NCBI GenBank assembly: GCA_027493955.1
Contig: JAOSJT010000001.1
Coordinates: 3,087,131 to 3,151,130 of the forward strand
Source of the DNA: Bacteroidia bacterium
GTDB lineage: Bacteria > Bacteroidota > Ignavibacteria > SZUA-365
DNA length: 64,000 bases
Direction: 5' to 3'
The first letter of the stretch is position 1; each line of letters begins with the position of its first letter. This document shows positions 5,530-64,000 of the stretch, piece after piece. The position numbers and the translations under genes were made by a program. The notes below the pieces were generated by a model. That model was not told the origin of the DNA and did not search any database. It saw nothing but the letters and a program-made list of their open reading frames with translations.

Positions 5530-5653
5530 GAATTACTATTGCCTTCAGGTCAAGTATTGAAAAATACGAACTCCGGCGGTAAAAAGGAATCGGATTCCGT
5601 TCACCGCAAGGAAACAGACACCGGAACCGGCGGAATGTTACGACTTTCGAATG

Positions 5654-6025
5654 CCTGCCCGCCGAAGCATCACAGGAACACGGCACAACCGTCGGTACAT
5701 GAGAGCGCAGGCGGGCCTGCCCGCCGAAGCATCACAGGATCATGGCACAACCTTCGGTACTTGAAAGCGCAGGCGGGCCTGCCCGCCGAAGCATCACAGG
5801 AACACGGCACAACCGTCTGTACATGAGAGCGCAGGCGGGCCTGCCCGCCGAAGCGTCATAGGACTACGGCACAACCGTCGGTACATGAGAGCACAGGCGG
5901 GCCTGCCCGCCGAAGCATCACAGGACCACGGCACAACCGTCGGTACATGAGAGCGCAGGCGGGCCTGCCCGCCGAAGCGTCACAGGACCACGGCACAACC
6001 GTCGGTACATGAGAGCACAGGCGGG
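5654..6025. repeat. Tandem array of six 62-bp palindrome-ended units
   Basis: Units start at 5654, 5716, 5778, 5840, 5902 and 5964, exactly 62 bp apart with no indels. Each begins cctgcccgccgaagc and ends gcaggcggg, so CCCGCC at the start can pair with GGCGGG at the end. Unit junctions form the palindrome gcgggcctgcccgc. Interior variation is by point substitution (caggaacac/caggatcat/caggaccac). Two solitary relatives, also 62 bp, sit at 63525-63586 and 63906-63967. The structure is REP-like; no coding frame runs across it in a meaningful way. Confidence 0.92.
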
Positions 6026-6100
6026 ACAACTTCCGATCTCTCCAGGTGTCGTCAGCCTCAGTGTGCCCACCAGTTCGCCTCAGGCGCATACACTGGACCA

Positions 6101-6134
6101 TTTCGTGGGGTGACATGAGGTCTCTGTGGTTTCG
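6101..6134. repeat. Dispersed motif ttcgtgggg-tgacatgaggtctc
   Basis: About 33 bases here match 23788-23820 (ttcgtgggtgacatcaggtctcagtggtttt), differing by an indel and a few substitutions. Both copies are intergenic and next to other repeats. Confidence 0.6.
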
Positions 6135-6145
6135 GCTACGATTAA

Positions 6146-7209
6146 GAGAACGGGTGGGTTGCGCGTGTCCCCCAACTGACGTTGCGGGTTAGAGGAAGTG
6201 TCGCCCTTCGGGCCAGGAGAACGGGTGAGTTGCGCGAGTCCCCCAACTGACGTTGGGGGTTAGAGGAAGTGTCGTCCTTCGGACCAGGAGAACGGGTAAG
6301 TTGCGCGTGTCCCCAAGCTGACGTTGCGGGTTAGAGGAAGTGTCGTCCTTCGGACTAGGAGAACGGGTGAGTTGCGCGTGTCCCCAAACTGACGTTGCGG
6401 GTCAGAGGAAGTGCCGCCCTTCGGACCAGGAGAACGGGTGGGTTGCGCGAGTCCCCTAACTGACGTTGGGGGTTAGAGGAAGTGTCGTCCTTCGGACTAG
6501 GAGAACGGGTAAGTTGCGCGTGTCCCCAAACTGACGTTGCGGGTTAGAGGAAGTGTCGTCCTTCGGGCCAGGAGAACGGGTGAGTTGCGCGTGTCCCCAA
6601 ACTGACGTTGCGGGTTAGAGGAAGTGCCGCCCTTCGGGCCAGGAGAACGGGTGGGTTGCGCGAGTCCCCAAACTGACGTTGCGGGTTAGAGGAAGTGCCG
6701 CCCTTCGGACCAGGAGAACGGGTAAGTTGCGCGAGTCCCCCAACTGACGTTAGGGGTTAGAGGAAGTGTCGCCCTTCGGACCAGGAGAACGGGTGGGTTG
6801 CGCGTGTCCCCCAACTGACGTTGGGGGTTAGAGGAAGTGTCGTCCTTCGGGCCAGGAGAACGGGTGAGTTGCGCGTGTCCCCCAACTGACGTTGGGGGTT
6901 AGAGGAAGTGTCGTCCTTCGGACTAGGAGAACGGGTGGGTTGCGCGTGTCTCCAAACTGACGTTGCGGGTTAGAGGAAGTGTCGCCCTTCGGACCAGGAG
7001 AACGGGTGGGTTGCGCGTGTCCTCCAACTGACGTTGGGGGTTAGAGGAAGTGCCGCCCTTCAGGCCAGGAGAACGGGTGGGTTGCGCGAGTCCCCAAACT
7101 GACGTTGGGGGTTAGAGGAAGTGTCGTCCTTCGGGCCAGGAGAACGGGTGAGTTGCGCGTGTCCCCAAACTGACGTTGCGGGTCAGAGGAAGTGCCGTCC
7201 TTCGGACTC
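6146..7209. repeat. 15-copy tandem array of a 71-bp unit with two potential hairpins
   Basis: Units begin with gagaacgggt at 6146, 6217, 6288 and so on every 71 bp to 7140; fifteen copies, none with an insertion or deletion, the last ending at about 7209. Copies differ only at a limited set of positions: ggg/gag/aag after gggt, gcgtgt/gcgagt, and the two stems. Stem 1 is CCCCCAAC-tgac-GTTGGGGG, perfect in copies 2, 10 and 11, with one to a few mismatches or a wobble in the others. Stem 2 is GCCC-ttc-GGGC or GTCC-ttc-GGAC, a paired change in several copies. Since 71 is not a multiple of 3 and stops occur in all frames, it is non-coding. There are no spacer-like unique segments, so it is not CRISPR. 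From 5530 to 7250 there is no gene. Confidence 0.95.
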
Positions 7210-7263
7210 TTCACCCTTCACCCTTTACCCTTCACCCTTTACCCTTCTCTCTACTCTTTACTC
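7208..7263. repeat. cttcacccttta minisatellite at the asnB 3' end
   Basis: Variants of cttcaccctttaccc follow directly on the 71-bp array and run into the last codons of asnB. The complementary motif ggtaaagggtgaaggg occurs at 61637-61671. Confidence 0.7.
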
Positions 7264-9107
7264 ATCCGATCCGCCAACACATACGCCCACCTCCTCTCCC
7301 AATTCGCGCGGACAAGCGTGGGTACACGCTTCCATGTGTCGATGCGCTCGTCTTGCTCCAGCCAATGACGGATGGGAACCTGAAAACCGGTTTTCCGTCG
7401 GTCGAGCAATTGCTGTGGTATGGGACGTGACGGACTCATCGCCAGCAGGCGCTTGCGATGCGTCAGCGCCAGGGTGTGCATGAGTGGCGCAAGGCGACGC
7501 AGCAGCTCGATGTCCACCAGCGGAACGCGAATTTCGATGGAATGCGCCATGCCCGCCCAGTCCGAATCGCGTAAAAGCTGATTTTTCATATACAGGCCCG
7601 CCTCCATCGCCGCGATACGTCCGTACGGTGTAACAGGATCCGGAGTCATTGCATCGCCGATCAGACCCATGATGTCCATATCGTGCAACCCGGCTTCCGC
7701 CCGGTCAACACCGAGCAACTCCGGCAGCTCCCAGGGCATGAAGAGTCCGCGACGCAGGTACCACGCACCCGGATAACTGTGTCCGTATTTCAGAGCACCG
7801 GCGACTTTCGGACTGCGCTCCGAATGCCCGGAAAGCAAAGACGCATACACACTCTGAAAGCCCTGCCCAAGCCAGGGGAGGCGCCTCGCAAAGCCAAATT
7901 TCCGTACCCACTCCGGCACATCCACAAAGGTGTTGTAGCCCGCGAAGAGTTCGTCTCCGCCCAGACCCGACAGCGCCACTTTCAAACCGTTCTCTCGTGC
8001 GGCTTTACTGACATAGTAGGTGTTGATGCCGTCAATGCTGGGTTGATCCATGACTGCGAGTATATGGTCGAGATCGCCGGAAAATTCCTGCGCAGTCAGC
8101 ATGCGCGTGCGGTGATCCGTACCGTAGTGACGCGCAACGTCTTCCGCCAGCGGCGCCTCGTCGTCGTGCCGGCCGCGAAATTCCTCGAACGCCAGCGTCA
8201 CCGTGCGCAAATCCTCTATGCCCGCATCACGCACCAATCCGACGAGAGTGCCCGAGTCAATCCCAGCGGAGAGAAACGCCCCCACCGGCACATCCGCGAT
8301 CATATGATGCGCCACCGAATCCCGCAACGCCTCACGAATGGTCTCTTCTTCCAACAGAGGGGCCGGGGGTGAGGTCTTCCCCCCCTCTCCTCTCAGGAGA
8401 GGGGCCGCCTCGGCCAACATCCCCGCAATGGAGCCGTACTCCACAGGTCCTTTGACTCCGGAACCATCCACGCGCAGCCAGTGTCCTGCCGGGAGAGCGC
8501 GAACAGCACGATAGATGCTCCGTGGTTCCGGCACGGAGCCCAGCATCAGAAAGGCGCACAGCGAACCCTCGTCAACGCGCGCATCCACTGCCCCGCCCGC
8601 CAACAGTGCCTTTACCTGCGATGCCATGCGAATGCAGCCGCCGTCGTCCGCGTAATACAGCGGTTTGATGCCGTACGGATCGCGCGCCGCAAAGAGCTGT
8701 TTCCTCTCATGGTCCCACAGCGCGAAGGCGAACATCCCCCGCAACATGGGCAACATGTCCGCGCCATGTCGTGCATAGAGGCCCATGAGCACTTCCGTAT
8801 CCGTCTCCGACCGGAGCGACCATCCGTCCCGCAGCAGCGTCTCCCGCAGCGGACGATAATTGTAAATTTCGCCGTTAAAGGTAATGCTGTACCGCCCGTC
8901 CACCGAGTGCATCGGCTGCGCACCGCGGTCCGACAGGTCAATGATGGACAGCCGCCGATGCCCGAAACCCACGCGGCCGTCGTCGGACACCCATTCGCCG
9001 AAGCCGTCCGGCCCGCGGGCGTGCATGTGGTCGCGCGTGGCGCGGAGTTCCGCGAGGTCCACCGTAAGAGAGCTGTTATAGTGAAAAATCGAATTGAAGC
9101 CGCACAT
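7251..9107 (-). CDS. asnB: Asparagine synthetase-type glutamine amidotransferase
   Basis: 618 aa. The N-terminal class II glutaminase domain (about 1-215) starts with the nucleophile Cys2 (MCGFNSIF) and shows HRRLSIIDLSDRGAQPM, FNGEIYNY and RGMFAFALWD. The ATP-PPi synthetase domain (about 255-600) has ADVPVGAFLSAGIDSGTL, where the PP-loop reads SAGIDS rather than the usual SGGxDS, and SGLGGDELFAGY. In polysaccharide loci such enzymes often amidate uronic acids, which would fit the nearby ugd; plain asparagine synthesis is the alternative. Residues about 235-251, between the two domains, are encoded by an inserted GC-rich palindromic repeat (APLLRGEGGKTSPPAPLL) that keeps the frame. Confidence 0.9.
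   Translation of the reverse strand: MCGFNSIFHYNSSLTVDLAELRATRDHMHARGPDGFGEWVSDDGRVGFGHRRLSIIDLSDRGAQPMHSVDGRYSITFNGEIYNYRPLRETLLRDGWSLRSETDTEVLMGLYARHGADMLPMLRGMFAFALWDHERKQLFAARDPYGIKPLYYADDGGCIRMASQVKALLAGGAVDARVDEGSLCAFLMLGSVPEPRSIYRAVRALPAGHWLRVDGSGVKGPVEYGSIAGMLAEAAPLLRGEGGKTSPPAPLLEEETIREALRDSVAHHMIADVPVGAFLSAGIDSGTLVGLVRDAGIEDLRTVTLAFEEFRGRHDDEAPLAEDVARHYGTDHRTRMLTAQEFSGDLDHILAVMDQPSIDGINTYYVSKAARENGLKVALSGLGGDELFAGYNTFVDVPEWVRKFGFARRLPWLGQGFQSVYASLLSGHSERSPKVAGALKYGHSYPGAWYLRRGLFMPWELPELLGVDRAEAGLHDMDIMGLIGDAMTPDPVTPYGRIAAMEAGLYMKNQLLRDSDWAGMAHSIEIRVPLVDIELLRRLAPLMHTLALTHRKRLLAMSPSRPIPQQLLDRRKTGFQVPIRHWLEQDERIDTWKRVPTLVRANWERRWAYVLADRMSKE
8356..8405. repeat. GC-rich palindromic repeat inserted inside asnB
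   Basis: Plus-strand gaggggccgggggtgagg followed by the palindrome cccctctcctctcaggagagggg. The same family lies in fcl (18832-18881), before wzi (25705-25790), at the DUF559 3' end (26219-26302) and in the aminotransferase (27845-27915). Here it adds about 17 codons in frame in the linker between the glutaminase and synthetase domains. Confidence 0.85.
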
Positions 9108-24045: not shown

Positions 24046-25704
24046 TCACCAAAGCCCGTAGGCGGCTCGGAGAGAAATGGTGAGGCCTTCGGGCTCGACA
24101 GAGGTTTTGTACCCTTCGCCAGGCTGTATGGCGACGTGGCGGACTGTCGCGACGGCGTACAGATCGTGCAGCGGCATCCAACGTATACGCAGCTCGAGAT
24201 TGCGCTGCGAGTATTCATGACCATAGAGAAAGGCCGGTTGGGTTCGGGGCCCGGCGGGGAGGAACATGTCGCTTTGTCCATAGCGCGCGAAGCTGACGGC
24301 ACCCGTCACATCAACGGCGCGCAGAGGATGGACGGTATGCGAGAGGAAGAGAATATCGGCGTTTGCGCCGATCCAGTGTCCGAGTACGACATTGTGCGAA
24401 CTGTAGCGCTGTACCGGCTTGGGATTGGTGTACACATACGGATACACACGGGAAAATTCCACGCGCGTCTCGCTGGCCAGAGGCAGCCAATGGGTATATG
24501 CGTCGGTCAGAAGCCCCCCCACGGTGTACGCTACATGATAATCGAAGCCGGTCTTGTCCGAGGCCATAATCTTGCTGTAATCCAGCTCATCGATGTAGCC
24601 GGTACCGTACACTATGACGGAGGGCAAGGCCCTCCAACGAAGGTCCGCGAAGAGCTGCGCATTCCCCGTTGTCGCGCGTGTCCAGCGATCGGCGGCGCGA
24701 AAGGGTAACACGGGCAGCAGGAAGAGCGGATTCACTGAACCGCCGTTGTACACGATGGACTCACCCAGCGCCACCTGCAGAGAAGGCATGACCCGGGCAG
24801 TAATGGCGTGCGCAGCGAAGAACTTATTTTCAAAGTACTGCAATCCCTCCACCGCACCCGGACCGGTAAAGTTGATATACGCCTCCAGTGTATCCGAAAA
24901 TAACCAGCCGTGCATATAATCCAGACGCAGCCAGTCGGTGATGAGCACGTGCAGGTTCATCGCGGGAAAGGACGGCGCCTTGTCCGAGAGAATGACCGCT
25001 CCCGTTCTCCCGCTTCCCCACCAAAGATCGGCTTTTTGCAACCCCAATCGCAGCCAGGGGAGGGAAAAAGTGAATTGCCCCTCCGCCACCTCCCAGTCGT
25101 ATCGGTCCACATCCTTCGACGGACCCTTCACTATGCCTTGCTCCGGCACGCGCCGCGCTCCGGCGTCATAGGGTATACCCCTGCGCCCATTGTCATACCA
25201 GCGCAGCGACGCCCCGAGATACTCCGACGCATAGCCCATGGCACGAATGCCGAACGCGCGCGTAAATACATTCTCCGCATCCTGCCGCAGAGCATAGCCC
25301 GCGCCGAAGACGATGTCGGCCGAGAGGAAACCGTGCGCGGGTCGCTCTCCGCGGAGGCGCAAAACATTCAAACGCTCATCGGACGGCTCCTCCGTACCGC
25401 TGCCGGAACGCGCCAGTCGTAAAAGTTCCTCGGCATACTCGGCGCGGTACCAAGAGAGCTCCATACGGTCATATTCCGTCAGCATCGCAGCGGAACGAGA
25501 GAGGGAATCCAGCAGAGCCGCTATTTCCATTCTCGGCAGGGCCCGGACAAATTGCGGCAACGCGTACCCGTATCGCGCTTCGATGCGGTCCAGGTAATCG
25601 TAGACCGGTGATCGCAGGGGTTCGTAGACGGTTTGGGCGTGGGCGGAGGAGAGGAGAGAGAAGAGTGAAAGAAGTAAAACACAGTGCAGGACCCCAGGCC
25701 TCAC
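24046..25704 (-). CDS. Wzi-like capsule assembly outer-membrane beta-barrel protein
   Basis: 552 aa, GTG start at 25704. Signal peptide LHCVLLLSLFSLLSSAHAQ. The mature part has an N-terminal helical segment and then many alternating, aromatic-rich strands ending in the Trp-containing ISLRAAYGLW, as expected for an outer-membrane barrel. Wzi-family landmarks include LGLQKADLWWGSGRTGAVI, PSFPAMNLHVLITDWLRL and YNGGSVNPLFLLPVLPF. Wzi proteins help attach or organise capsule at the surface. The GTG start lies inside a repeat-derived ggggtgagtgagg, so the repeat may have replaced the original start region; no better start is present before residue 58. Confidence 0.8.
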   Translation of the reverse strand: MRPGVLHCVLLLSLFSLLSSAHAQTVYEPLRSPVYDYLDRIEARYGYALPQFVRALPRMEIAALLDSLSRSAAMLTEYDRMELSWYRAEYAEELLRLARSGSGTEEPSDERLNVLRLRGERPAHGFLSADIVFGAGYALRQDAENVFTRAFGIRAMGYASEYLGASLRWYDNGRRGIPYDAGARRVPEQGIVKGPSKDVDRYDWEVAEGQFTFSLPWLRLGLQKADLWWGSGRTGAVILSDKAPSFPAMNLHVLITDWLRLDYMHGWLFSDTLEAYINFTGPGAVEGLQYFENKFFAAHAITARVMPSLQVALGESIVYNGGSVNPLFLLPVLPFRAADRWTRATTGNAQLFADLRWRALPSVIVYGTGYIDELDYSKIMASDKTGFDYHVAYTVGGLLTDAYTHWLPLASETRVEFSRVYPYVYTNPKPVQRYSSHNVVLGHWIGANADILFLSHTVHPLRAVDVTGAVSFARYGQSDMFLPAGPRTQPAFLYGHEYSQRNLELRIRWMPLHDLYAVATVRHVAIQPGEGYKTSVEPEGLTISLRAAYGLW

Positions 25705-25790
25705 TCACCCCGGCCCCCCTCTCCGCTTCCGGCATCTGATCTTTACGCCGCTGCGGAGAGGGGGAGGGGGAGGGGGAGGGAATTGACCGT
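25705..25790. repeat. GC-rich palindromic repeat between wzi and DUF559
   Basis: ccccggcccccctctccgc ... gcggagagggggagg: the two arms can pair across about 25 bases. It abuts the wzi start codon on one side and the DUF559 leader on the other, and belongs to the family inserted in asnB and fcl. Confidence 0.75.
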
Positions 25791-25857: not shown

Positions 25858-26316
25858 ATGCCAACAAAATTTCTCGCTCAAGTCGCACTACAACGTTGCA
25901 GGGAATTGCGACAACGTCAGACAAAGGCCGAATTCTTTCTGTGGGATTTGCTCAGGAACAGGAAGTGCGGTGGATTCAAATTCTATCGTCAGCGTGCAGT
26001 ATTCTATGAAGTGCCCGGAAAGAAATCGTTCTTTATTGCGGATTTCTATTCGCGCGAGCTGCTGCTCATCATCGAGTTGGATGGCCCTATTCATGAAAGC
26101 AGGAAGGAGTATGATACCGGCAGAGATGACGTATTACGTATGTACGGTTTGCGCGTGCTGAGATTTCAGAATGAGTTGGTGCTGGCTCATCCGGAGATGG
26201 TGTTGGAGGCGATTTTGGCCTCACCCCCGGCCTCTCCCCCGGCCTCTCCCCCGGCCTCTCCCCGGCCCCCTCTCCGCAAGCGGAGAGCGGGGGAGGAAAT
26301 CACAATAGTGTTTTAA
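25858..26316 (+). CDS. DUF559 (Vsr-like) endonuclease-fold protein
   Basis: 152 aa from the ATG at 25858, chosen for the gggaga ribosome-binding site 6 bases upstream; the frame is open further up but that part is repeat and AT-rich leader. Features: RQRQTKAEFFLWDLLRNRK, KFYRQRAVFYEVPGKKSFFIADFYSRELLLIIELDGPIHES and DDVLRMYGLRVLRFQNELV. The D ... E-x-D/H pattern is that of DUF559 proteins related to very-short-patch-repair nucleases. Function unknown. It is the only confident plus-strand gene here. Its last about 30 residues (ASPPASPPASPP, then RPPLRKRRAGEE) come from a palindromic repeat, and it overlaps the 3' end of the PglC-like gene by 17 bases. Confidence 0.8.
   Translation: MPTKFLAQVALQRCRELRQRQTKAEFFLWDLLRNRKCGGFKFYRQRAVFYEVPGKKSFFIADFYSRELLLIIELDGPIHESRKEYDTGRDDVLRMYGLRVLRFQNELVLAHPEMVLEAILASPPASPPASPPASPRPPLRKRRAGEEITIVF
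26219..26302. repeat. GC-rich palindromic repeat at the DUF559 3' end
   Basis: Four tandem cccccggcctct modules lead into ccccctctccgcaagcggag, a hairpin with gcaa at its tip. It encodes the C-terminal tail of DUF559 and ends at the converging PglC-like gene. Confidence 0.8.
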
Positions 26317-27573: not shown

Positions 27574-27720
27574 TGAGAGGCGAAGAGCGGTGAGCGGGAG
27601 GCGTAGCGCGCAGCACGGAGCGCGTAGCGTTCTCAGATTCTGCTGTTTCGCCGGTATCCGCATGGTCTGTACGGGAAGTTGGCGCTACGCGCTCTGCGCT
27701 TTGCGCTACGCTCCCTCTCC
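27574..27720. repeat. gcgctacgc inverted-repeat element, copy 3, inside the aminotransferase
   Basis: ggcgtagcgcgcagcacggagcg and gcgtagcgttctcaga on the left, ggcgctacgcgctctgcgc and gcgctacgctccctctcc on the right: the same order of motifs as at 19501 and 20070. It is translated in frame as about 50 Ser/Ala/Arg/Thr-rich residues between the conserved HAF and CFSF blocks. Confidence 0.75.
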
Positions 27721-27844: not shown

Positions 27845-27915
27845 ACGGCCCTCACCCCGGCCCCTCTGCCCTCACCCCCGGCCCCTCTCCCGGTAGGGAG
27901 AGGGGAGGAGGAGGG
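27845..27915. repeat. GC-rich palindromic repeat (two units) with the frameshift site
   Basis: Plus strand: ccctcaccccggcccctctg, then ccctcacccccggcccctct, then cccggtagggagaggggagg. Two near-identical units differ in the C tract (4 versus 5); this one-base difference breaks the aminotransferase frame. Confidence 0.85.
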
Positions 27916-63473: not shown

Positions 63474-63524
63474 GTGGATTTACGATGGTGGATGGACGAT
63501 TGACGAATGACGATTGACGATTTG
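63474..63524. repeat. Degenerate gattgacgatttg repeat upstream of the ATPase gene
   Basis: tttacgatggtggatggacg, gattgacgaatgacg and gattgacgatttg: same family as 2503-2541. The ATPase promoter must lie in or beyond this repeat; none is obvious. Confidence 0.6.
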
Positions 63525-63586
63525 CCTGCCCGCCGAAGCATCGTACGTGTTTGGCACGACCGTTGTTGGAAGAGGGCGAAGGCGGG
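63525..63586. repeat. Solitary 62-bp palindrome-ended element
   Basis: Begins cctgcccgccgaagcatc and ends aggcggg, and is exactly 62 bp, as each unit of the array at 5654-6025. The interior differs (cgtacgtgtttggcacgacc) but keeps ggcac-accgt. Flanked by cgatttg/acgattt. Confidence 0.85.
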
Positions 63587-63654
63587 ACGATTTACTCAGT
63601 GAAGTTAGGCCTGGCAGGGTGCTATTTGTGGAAATCCGGAGGCAGCGTTTCAGC

Positions 63655-63858
63655 TCATGCAACGTCTTTACCGTCGGTATTGTCCCCGGTATCGTCAAGC
63701 TTCCAGATATATGCGGGCTCGCCTCGTGCGCGGAGCAATGGTGCGGCGATGGTTTGAAGCTTGATGAGGATACGGACTTTCTCTTCAATCGGAAGCCTGG
63801 CCAGGGCGAGGCGTCGCTTCTCTTTCGCTGCAAGGATACGTTGCAGCTCCGGGTTCAT
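63655..63858 (-). CDS. Small conserved-looking protein of unknown function
   Basis: 67 aa from the ATG at 63858 (a GTG three codons upstream is open). NPELQRILAAKEKRRLALAR then LPIEEKVRILIKLQTIAAPL and RARGEPAYIWKLDD: a highly charged amphipathic helical protein with a Trp-containing tail. Small proteins with this opening (L-Q-x-I-L-x-x-K ... R-x-x-L-A-x-L-P-x-x-E-K) are often found beside nucleotidyltransferase-like toxin genes, but no such partner is visible here. Function unknown. Confidence 0.6.
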   Translation of the reverse strand: MNPELQRILAAKEKRRLALARLPIEEKVRILIKLQTIAAPLLRARGEPAYIWKLDDTGDNTDGKDVA

Positions 63859-63905
63859 TACTTTCACCTATGCTCCCGTAGTCGAAGGAGGAGATTTGCG
63901 ATTTG

Positions 63906-63967
63906 CCTGCCCGCCGAAGCATCGTACGTGTTTGGCACAACCTTTGTTGGAAGTGGGCGTAGGCGGG
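63906..63967. repeat. Second solitary 62-bp palindrome-ended element
   Basis: Begins cctgcccgccgaagcatc, ends taggcggg; 62 bp, about 55 of 62 positions the same as 63525-63586. The small gene at 63655 lies between the two copies, which are in the same orientation. Followed by gattcacgattcacg-type short repeats to the window end. Confidence 0.85.
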
Positions 63968-64000
63968 ACGATTCACGATTCACGTTTAACGTTTAACGTT

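Follow-up and report, generated by a model that had tools for sequence, protein, structure and literature searches.

Homopurine palindromes of the BoxC/PIT/TM type around DUF559 nuclease genes: a possible mobile element that enters reading frames

What occupies the linker of the asnB-like gene in this stretch of DNA? The window, by which we mean the entire stretch of 64,000 nucleotides that was analysed (positions 3087131-3151130 of a 5.24-Mb genome), carries the gene near one end and, further along, a DUF559 nuclease gene and an aminotransferase gene (Table 1). The AsnB protein combines a GATase_7 domain (residues 50-170) with an Asn_synthase domain (residues 257-585), and between the two, at residues about 235-256, lies the product of a GC-rich insert of about 60 bp (window positions 8342-8404), made up of two hairpin copies of the BoxC/PIT triplex motif (TM), of which one has decayed and the other is intact. 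An earlier note on this DNA had described here a palindromic repeat of a multi-copy family, inserted in frame at a domain linker. The repeat is indeed found at that place, slightly larger than the 8356-8405 first proposed; it sits between the two domains, the 618-aa frame runs through it unbroken, and its 16-mer core has 10 matches in the window at up to 3 mismatches, against 0.47 expected. The note was thus right about an in-frame linker insertion of a multi-copy family, but missed the identity of the family with BoxC/PIT/TM.

Table 1. Position of the asnB-like gene, the DUF559 gene and the associated repeats in the window
Feature	Position	Strand	Basis or remark
asnB-like gene, 618 aa	7251..9107	-	TIGR01536 E 6e-108; intact frame
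TM copy 1 in asnB, decayed, TCTCTTCTTCCAACAGAGGGGCCGGGGGTGAGG	8342..8374	+	resemblance to relatives' TM
TM copy 2 in asnB, perfect hairpin CCCCTCTCC-tctca-GGAGAGGGG	8382..8404	.	hairpin search
Palindromic repeat 5' of DUF559 gene (CCCCTCTCC at 25716, GGAGAGGGG at 25755)	25699..25780	.	
DUF559 nuclease gene, 152 aa	25858..26316	+	PF04480 E 7e-28
TM-derived tandem repeat and hairpin, forming the DUF559 gene 3' end	26219..26290	.	
TM copies in aminotransferase gene	27850..27905	-	exact full TM pattern at 27870-27903

In the whole genome, the core motif has 15 matches at up to 2 mismatches, against 7 for the reversed control of the pattern, and 12 of the 15 fall within 58 kb, between positions 3095489 and 3153998. 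The only two DUF559 (PF04480) genes of the genome, at 3113018 and 3153563, lie in the same interval, each with palindromes on both sides. The final codons of the DUF559 gene in the window are themselves derived from the repeat (ASPPASPPASPPASPRPPLRKRRAGEE); its tail had been listed among the sites of insertion, and the repeat does form the 3' end of the gene, but DUF559 is the key partner of the family rather than one of its victims. Two further sites had been counted as members inside genes. The aminotransferase copy (G000:3115000) is present and matches the full TM pattern exactly, but the reading frame shifts across it and the protein continues in another frame beyond; the copy is therefore disruptive, and insertion of the family is not always harmless. 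In fcl, no hairpin copy was found, only scattered matches with 3 mismatches. Other repeats also occur in the region: a second, unrelated GCGTAGCGCG-type repeat lies in frame inside the aminotransferase gene (window 27580-27711), and the window is rich in repeats beyond this, with GTGAAAGG, 62-bp, 71-bp and ATTTACGATTGACG-type units arrayed in tandem at 2582-2917, 5591-6086, 6004-7297 and 63476-63996. An IS-like element (L215 about 1540-2915, genome 3152039-3153414; ORFs 1816-2478 and 2439-2876, ends GGCGCTAACTTAAG) interrupts the series of palindromes that precedes the second DUF559 gene.

E. coli K-12 has 23 copies of the intrastrand triplex motif TM, previously named BoxC and PIT. Holder et al. 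2015 (PMC4666352) report triplex formation on a single strand in vitro, place the E. coli copies between genes with no mobility gene nearby, and describe PIT motifs as having neither promoter nor terminator activity. The repeats seen here have the same architecture, CCCTCNCCC-loop-GGGNGAGGG-NNN-GGGTGAGGG, and are likewise multi-copy, often arranged as inverted pairs, and found in many bacteria. As hairpins, the palindromes are of the homopurine/homopyrimidine kind, and slightly fewer than half of them also have a third tract of purines that can fold back; arms outside the CCCTCTCCC type also occur, such as AAGGAGGGG. The combination that defines TMs, a homopurine hairpin with arms of about 9 bp and a third purine strand, is present in the family, and exactly so in the aminotransferase copy. 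In asnB, copy 1 is of the same type: compared by eye with the TM CCTCTCCTTCCAGGAGAGGGGCCGGGGGTGAGG of the sister genomes G002 and G005, it has 4 mismatches in 33 positions. Copy 2, with 9-bp arms, has lost the third-strand part and kept the hairpin alone. We hold it to be close to certain both that these are the triplex-forming repeats known as BoxC/PIT/TM and that they are associated with DUF559 genes. Unlike the intergenic TMs of Holder et al. 2015, those described here are associated with DUF559 and also insert into coding frames. We dropped the notion of a TM design that keeps all six frames open, since TMs are no more open in six frames than shuffled sequence.

The linker into which the asnB copies are inserted was compared in eight relatives (G001-G006, G011, G012), none of which has such a palindrome there. 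The absence from orthologues that the earlier note had anticipated was thus found, but both the length and the sequence of the linker are hypervariable among these relatives, and it is hence not a clean empty site. It holds differing repeat-like sequences from one relative to the next, as though insertions commonly landed there in frame: G006 (L133/L147) has a duplicated GCAGGGGGATTCAATCCCTGC block, G003 (L127) a GCCCGCCGAAGGCGG-type sequence, and G005 (L128) and G002 (L132) have AAGACACCAAGACACGAAGACAC-type sequences.

In its PD-(D/E)XK fold, the DUF559 domain resembles both Vsr and the homing endonuclease I-Bth0305I. A structure model of the window protein (pLDDT 90) agrees in Foldseek with the homing nuclease fold (E 4.8e-3, prob 1.00), and the profile matches both the DUF559-like protein 3hrl and the I-Bth0305I catalytic domain, 3r3p (E 3e-4); matches to toxin B chains had E > 0.03 and were taken as noise. 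A PADLOC scan of the window protein gave nothing. The similarity of YcjD, the E. coli member, to Vsr has been reported before (PMC1189080), and DUF559 is described from inteins (PMC9403480). For Caulobacter, one study proposes the DUF559 protein VsrA as a mismatch-repair enzyme, and a DUF559 protein is reported there to cause an SOS response in cells lacking a methylase (PMC12907096).

How general is the association between DUF559 and the palindromes? We analysed 80 loci from named genomes of many phyla, which are the best 80 of 576 from a search with a KFRRQHP-type motif and hence biased by that motif, and 40 loci from the class of the window, chosen by hand among the first places listed and thus a non-random sample. 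Loci at contig ends were dropped (4 of 80 in the shared-string test, 6 of 80 in the hairpin-density test, 1 of 40 in the class sample, 7 of 120 in the relaxed-hairpin test). At the named loci, perfect-stem hairpins reach 7.51 per kb within 100 bp of DUF559, against about 0.25 per kb beyond 500 bp; a hairpin stands on both flanks at 50 of 74 loci, compared with 11 of 836 control ORFs, and an exact string of at least 20 nt is common to both flanks in 28 of 76, compared with 1 of 1347 control positions of the same geometry. The class sample behaves alike, with 4.38 hairpins per kb near DUF559 against about 0.2, and strings shared between the flanks at 12 of 39 loci against 2 of 147 controls. Under a relaxed rule (stem of 8, one mismatch, homopurine, within 300 bp), 112 of 113 testable DUF559 domains have a hairpin on at least one side and 83 on both, the corresponding figures for control positions being 45 and 0 of 352. 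The hairpins near DUF559 are of a distinct kind: their arms are homopurine in 218 of 235 cases (61 of 309 for distant hairpins), and a third strand fitting at 8 or more of 9 positions accompanies 101 of them (16 of 309). The orientation of TMs at DUF559 is mixed, 110 pointing inward and 54 outward, so that a strict rule in either direction was rejected. Taken at the level of sequence, DUF559 genes are flanked by homopurine palindromes in many phyla, a link for which we found no paper, under DUF559 or ycjD, in the open-licence PMC literature.

The association is also specific to the enzyme. At 30 DUF559 genes of relatives, 37 of 44 hairpins were homopurine, compared with 1 of 38 at 30 Y1_Tnp (RAYT-type) genes and 0 of 2 at 30 HNH genes of the same relatives, and since the scanned flank was 600 bp for the Y1 and HNH genes and 300 bp for DUF559, the comparison favours the controls. 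Among 119 genomes of the class, 44 contain both DUF559 and strict TMs, 29 DUF559 only, 6 TMs only and 40 neither (Fisher p 2e-7; within-family permutation p 5e-5), with 274 strict TM copies in DUF559 genomes against 18 in DUF559-negative ones; the reversed TM pattern had no match in any of the 119. Among the matches listed, to which the distances refer, 21 of 130 TMs in DUF559 genomes are at most 1 kb away from a listed DUF559 gene, where 0.18 would be expected, 28 are within 5 kb, and 102 lie farther away. As TMs also occur in 6 of the 46 DUF559-negative genomes, and as most listed copies are distant, either old copies persist or another agent moves TMs. The similarity of the nucleases covaries with that of the palindrome arms (Mantel r 0.495 for pairs below 75% identity, the largest of 1000 permutations being 0.19), a relation confounded by phylogeny and weak inside single genomes (rho 0.42, p 0.09, n=17).

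The asnB insert has many counterparts in which the nuclease itself resides within a host frame. At 45 of 120 loci, DUF559 is part of an open frame of at least 300 aa, a count in which all such frames were retained and which may include chance open frames in GC-rich DNA, and palindromes border both sides in 39 of the 42 that were testable. By Pfam, the 45 frames include N-6 methylase (8 members), MetH (8, at two different places), MmeI (6), HsdM (5), Eco57I (4), Mur ligase (4), HsdR (3), MetG (2) and UvrC (2), with HemD, RecQ and a PIG-L deacetylase as single hosts. Ten host proteins scanned singly have host domains on one or both sides of DUF559 and no intein domain, which excludes inteins as the explanation for these ten; none appeared either among the 25 of 51 families listed in the Pfam scan of the 45 members. 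At eleven positions of DUF559, among them those of E-x-D-G-x-x-H, all 45 of the 45 members have the same residue, which makes the in-frame nucleases look functional. In metH, the domain stands before the B12-cap domain in one lineage and between the cap and the Rossmann domain in another (carriers L089, L092, L099 and L120 from Chloroflexi, and L169 and L174 from the window's class), and the two positions point to independent invasions.

A single site with several states is provided by the uvrC linker in one genus of 13 genomes. It is ordinary, with neither repeat nor DUF559, in G029, G038, G124 and G125. In G056 it contains the repeats alone, as it does in G126, where a contig end cuts it, and in G047, G111 and G120 it contains both; in the remaining 4 genomes the site was incomplete or not found. 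Comparison shows that palindromes, alone or together with DUF559, occupy gene linkers in frame and that their presence at one site varies between close relatives.

In E. coli K-12, the DUF559 gene is ycjD, whose product (PF04480 E 1.4e-49) ends in RRSPSP. TMECO 9 (1351239-1351204) is located between fabI and ycjD at a distance of 168 bp from the ycjD end, and the chance that 1 of 18 sites falls within 300 bp of ycjD is about 0.004; the ycjD stop codon looks as if it were placed inside a decayed TM. The ycjD region is covered to at least 80% in 3363 of 5375 matching E. coli genomes. Two genomes without ycjD that were inspected have an RND efflux operon at that place (compare PMC12817139), with no TM there in the one that was read, and because of this alternation the locus is not a simple empty site. 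The PF04480 search had no match in our E. coli control genome, perhaps a strain without ycjD. Elsewhere, two TMs between lldD and trmL are paired in the manner of the uvrC cassettes; some strains lack this pair or have it in reduced form. Neither the TM-less alleles at this locus nor the AsnB relatives show a clean excision footprint or target duplication, the flanks differing too. In BL21 (L280), a small palindrome, CTGTCTCTTGATCAGATCTCCTGATCAAGAGAC, stands in place of the sequence that separates the two TMs; we take it to resemble the inside end of IS50.

What could have brought the palindromes to these places? We think it rather probable that nuclease gene and palindromes together constitute a mobile element, of which the asnB insert would be a non-autonomous copy. 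The autonomous form would be a DUF559 nuclease gene with a palindrome at either end. Its product would recognise the hairpin or triplex, perhaps single-stranded at a fork, and would cut or nick at the palindrome and at the target, upon which repair of the break would copy in the palindrome, either alone or along with the gene. Selection would spare insertions that preserve the reading frame at protein linkers, as in asnB; insertions that break the frame are found as well, as in the aminotransferase gene. As to the agent, the balance leans towards DUF559 as the mobiliser of the palindromes, as we infer. For the broadest form of the proposal our judgement is evenly poised: a class of bacterial mobile elements in many phyla, made of a Vsr/EDxHD nuclease gene and triplex-forming palindromes, would enter genes in frame and without splicing, the nuclease recognising and copying the palindrome, the palindromes without a gene being the BoxC/PIT/TM repeats, familiar for decades, and the protein staying as a domain in essential enzymes (metG, metH, uvrC).

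Several other explanations have to be weighed against such a mobile element. The palindromes might be older and independent, with DUF559 homing into them and the asnB copy representing an unoccupied landing site. Sites with palindromes only, in uvrC of G056 and in asnB, would fit this well, as would the great distance of most listed TMs from DUF559 (102 of 130 beyond 5 kb), the resemblance of DUF559 to I-Bth0305I and its occurrence in inteins (PMC9403480). However, TM copy number tracks the presence of DUF559, the spread of the palindromes is left unexplained, and the uvrC linker lacks palindrome and gene alike in four genomes, so that both may be gained or lost together there; we consider homing unlikely, though by no means negligible. 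A role of DUF559 as a Vsr-like enzyme of repair or genome stability, with immobile palindromes that regulate or protect its gene as terminators or by stabilising the transcript, could be argued from the Caulobacter VsrA work (PMC12907096), the YcjD-Vsr similarity (PMC1189080) and the reading of palindromes as terminators in Enterobacter 638 (PMC2869309). It is improbable in light of the in-frame loci, with the palindromes on both sides of the domain, since a terminator makes no sense where DUF559 lies inside a long open frame, and the lack of promoter or terminator activity that Holder et al. 2015 (PMC4666352) ascribe to PIT motifs likewise speaks against it.

That the palindromes are ordinary REPs moved by RAYT (Y1) or another transposase, DUF559 being a hitch-hiker, has in its favour that 33 of 41 relatives have a Y1_Tnp gene and that a transposase ORF of the IS-like element interrupts the repeats beside the second DUF559 gene. 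The hairpins at Y1_Tnp genes are of a different kind, nearly all of them not homopurine, and a RAYT origin was rejected as very improbable. For asnB itself, one could invoke the drift of an ordinary low-complexity linker, GC-rich and palindromic by chance, given the hypervariability of this linker in the eight relatives. This is hardly credible: the hairpin is perfect over 9-bp arms, the neighbouring copy deviates so little from the sister-genome TMs, and the excess of the core motif in the window together with the perfect hairpin rules out a chance palindrome.

Catalogues of BoxC/PIT/TM repeats cover hundreds of genomes, and Holder et al. 2015 (PMC4666352) left open how they spread; the tie to DUF559 names a candidate enzyme. 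It also connects a large, little-characterised nuclease family to a repeat in a way that is directly testable in E. coli K-12 via ycjD, and it explains odd inserts of the types ...PSPxGRGxGGEG... and ...TPLPxGEG... in many predicted proteins. If the proposal of a mobile element is true, it would add a means by which mobile DNA can reside in essential genes without splicing.

Among known systems, REP/RAYT is similar in organisation, as it also couples short dispersed palindromes to a dedicated nuclease gene that is flanked by them and covaries with them. It differs in that the enzyme here is unrelated (PD-(D/E)XK, Vsr-like), the arms are homopurine and triplex-capable, and insertion into genes in frame is frequent; the Y1 transposase genes that define REP/RAYT are not flanked by this palindrome, with 1 homopurine hairpin in 38 at 30 loci. 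The PATEs of haloarchaea were set aside as a different thing, being related to IS605 (PMC3119063). Rickettsia palindromic elements share the in-frame placement of palindromes in unrelated genes, which is seen here in asnB, the aminotransferase copy being out of frame. According to a review they measure ~150 bp (PMC10969869), against units of about 35 nt here; our family, set apart from them by this description and by its proposed nuclease partner, is not obviously one of them. Finally, homing endonucleases and inteins of the EDxHD type (I-Bth0305I) offer a related nuclease fold, borne out by the 3r3p and Foldseek matches, and in-frame residence in conserved genes. As regards transfer into empty alleles, uvrC shows the occupied and empty states only. 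No Hint domain surrounds the nuclease in the ten host proteins scanned singly and, in contrast to an intein, the insert described here would stay in the protein, bounded by palindromes that exist in many copies.
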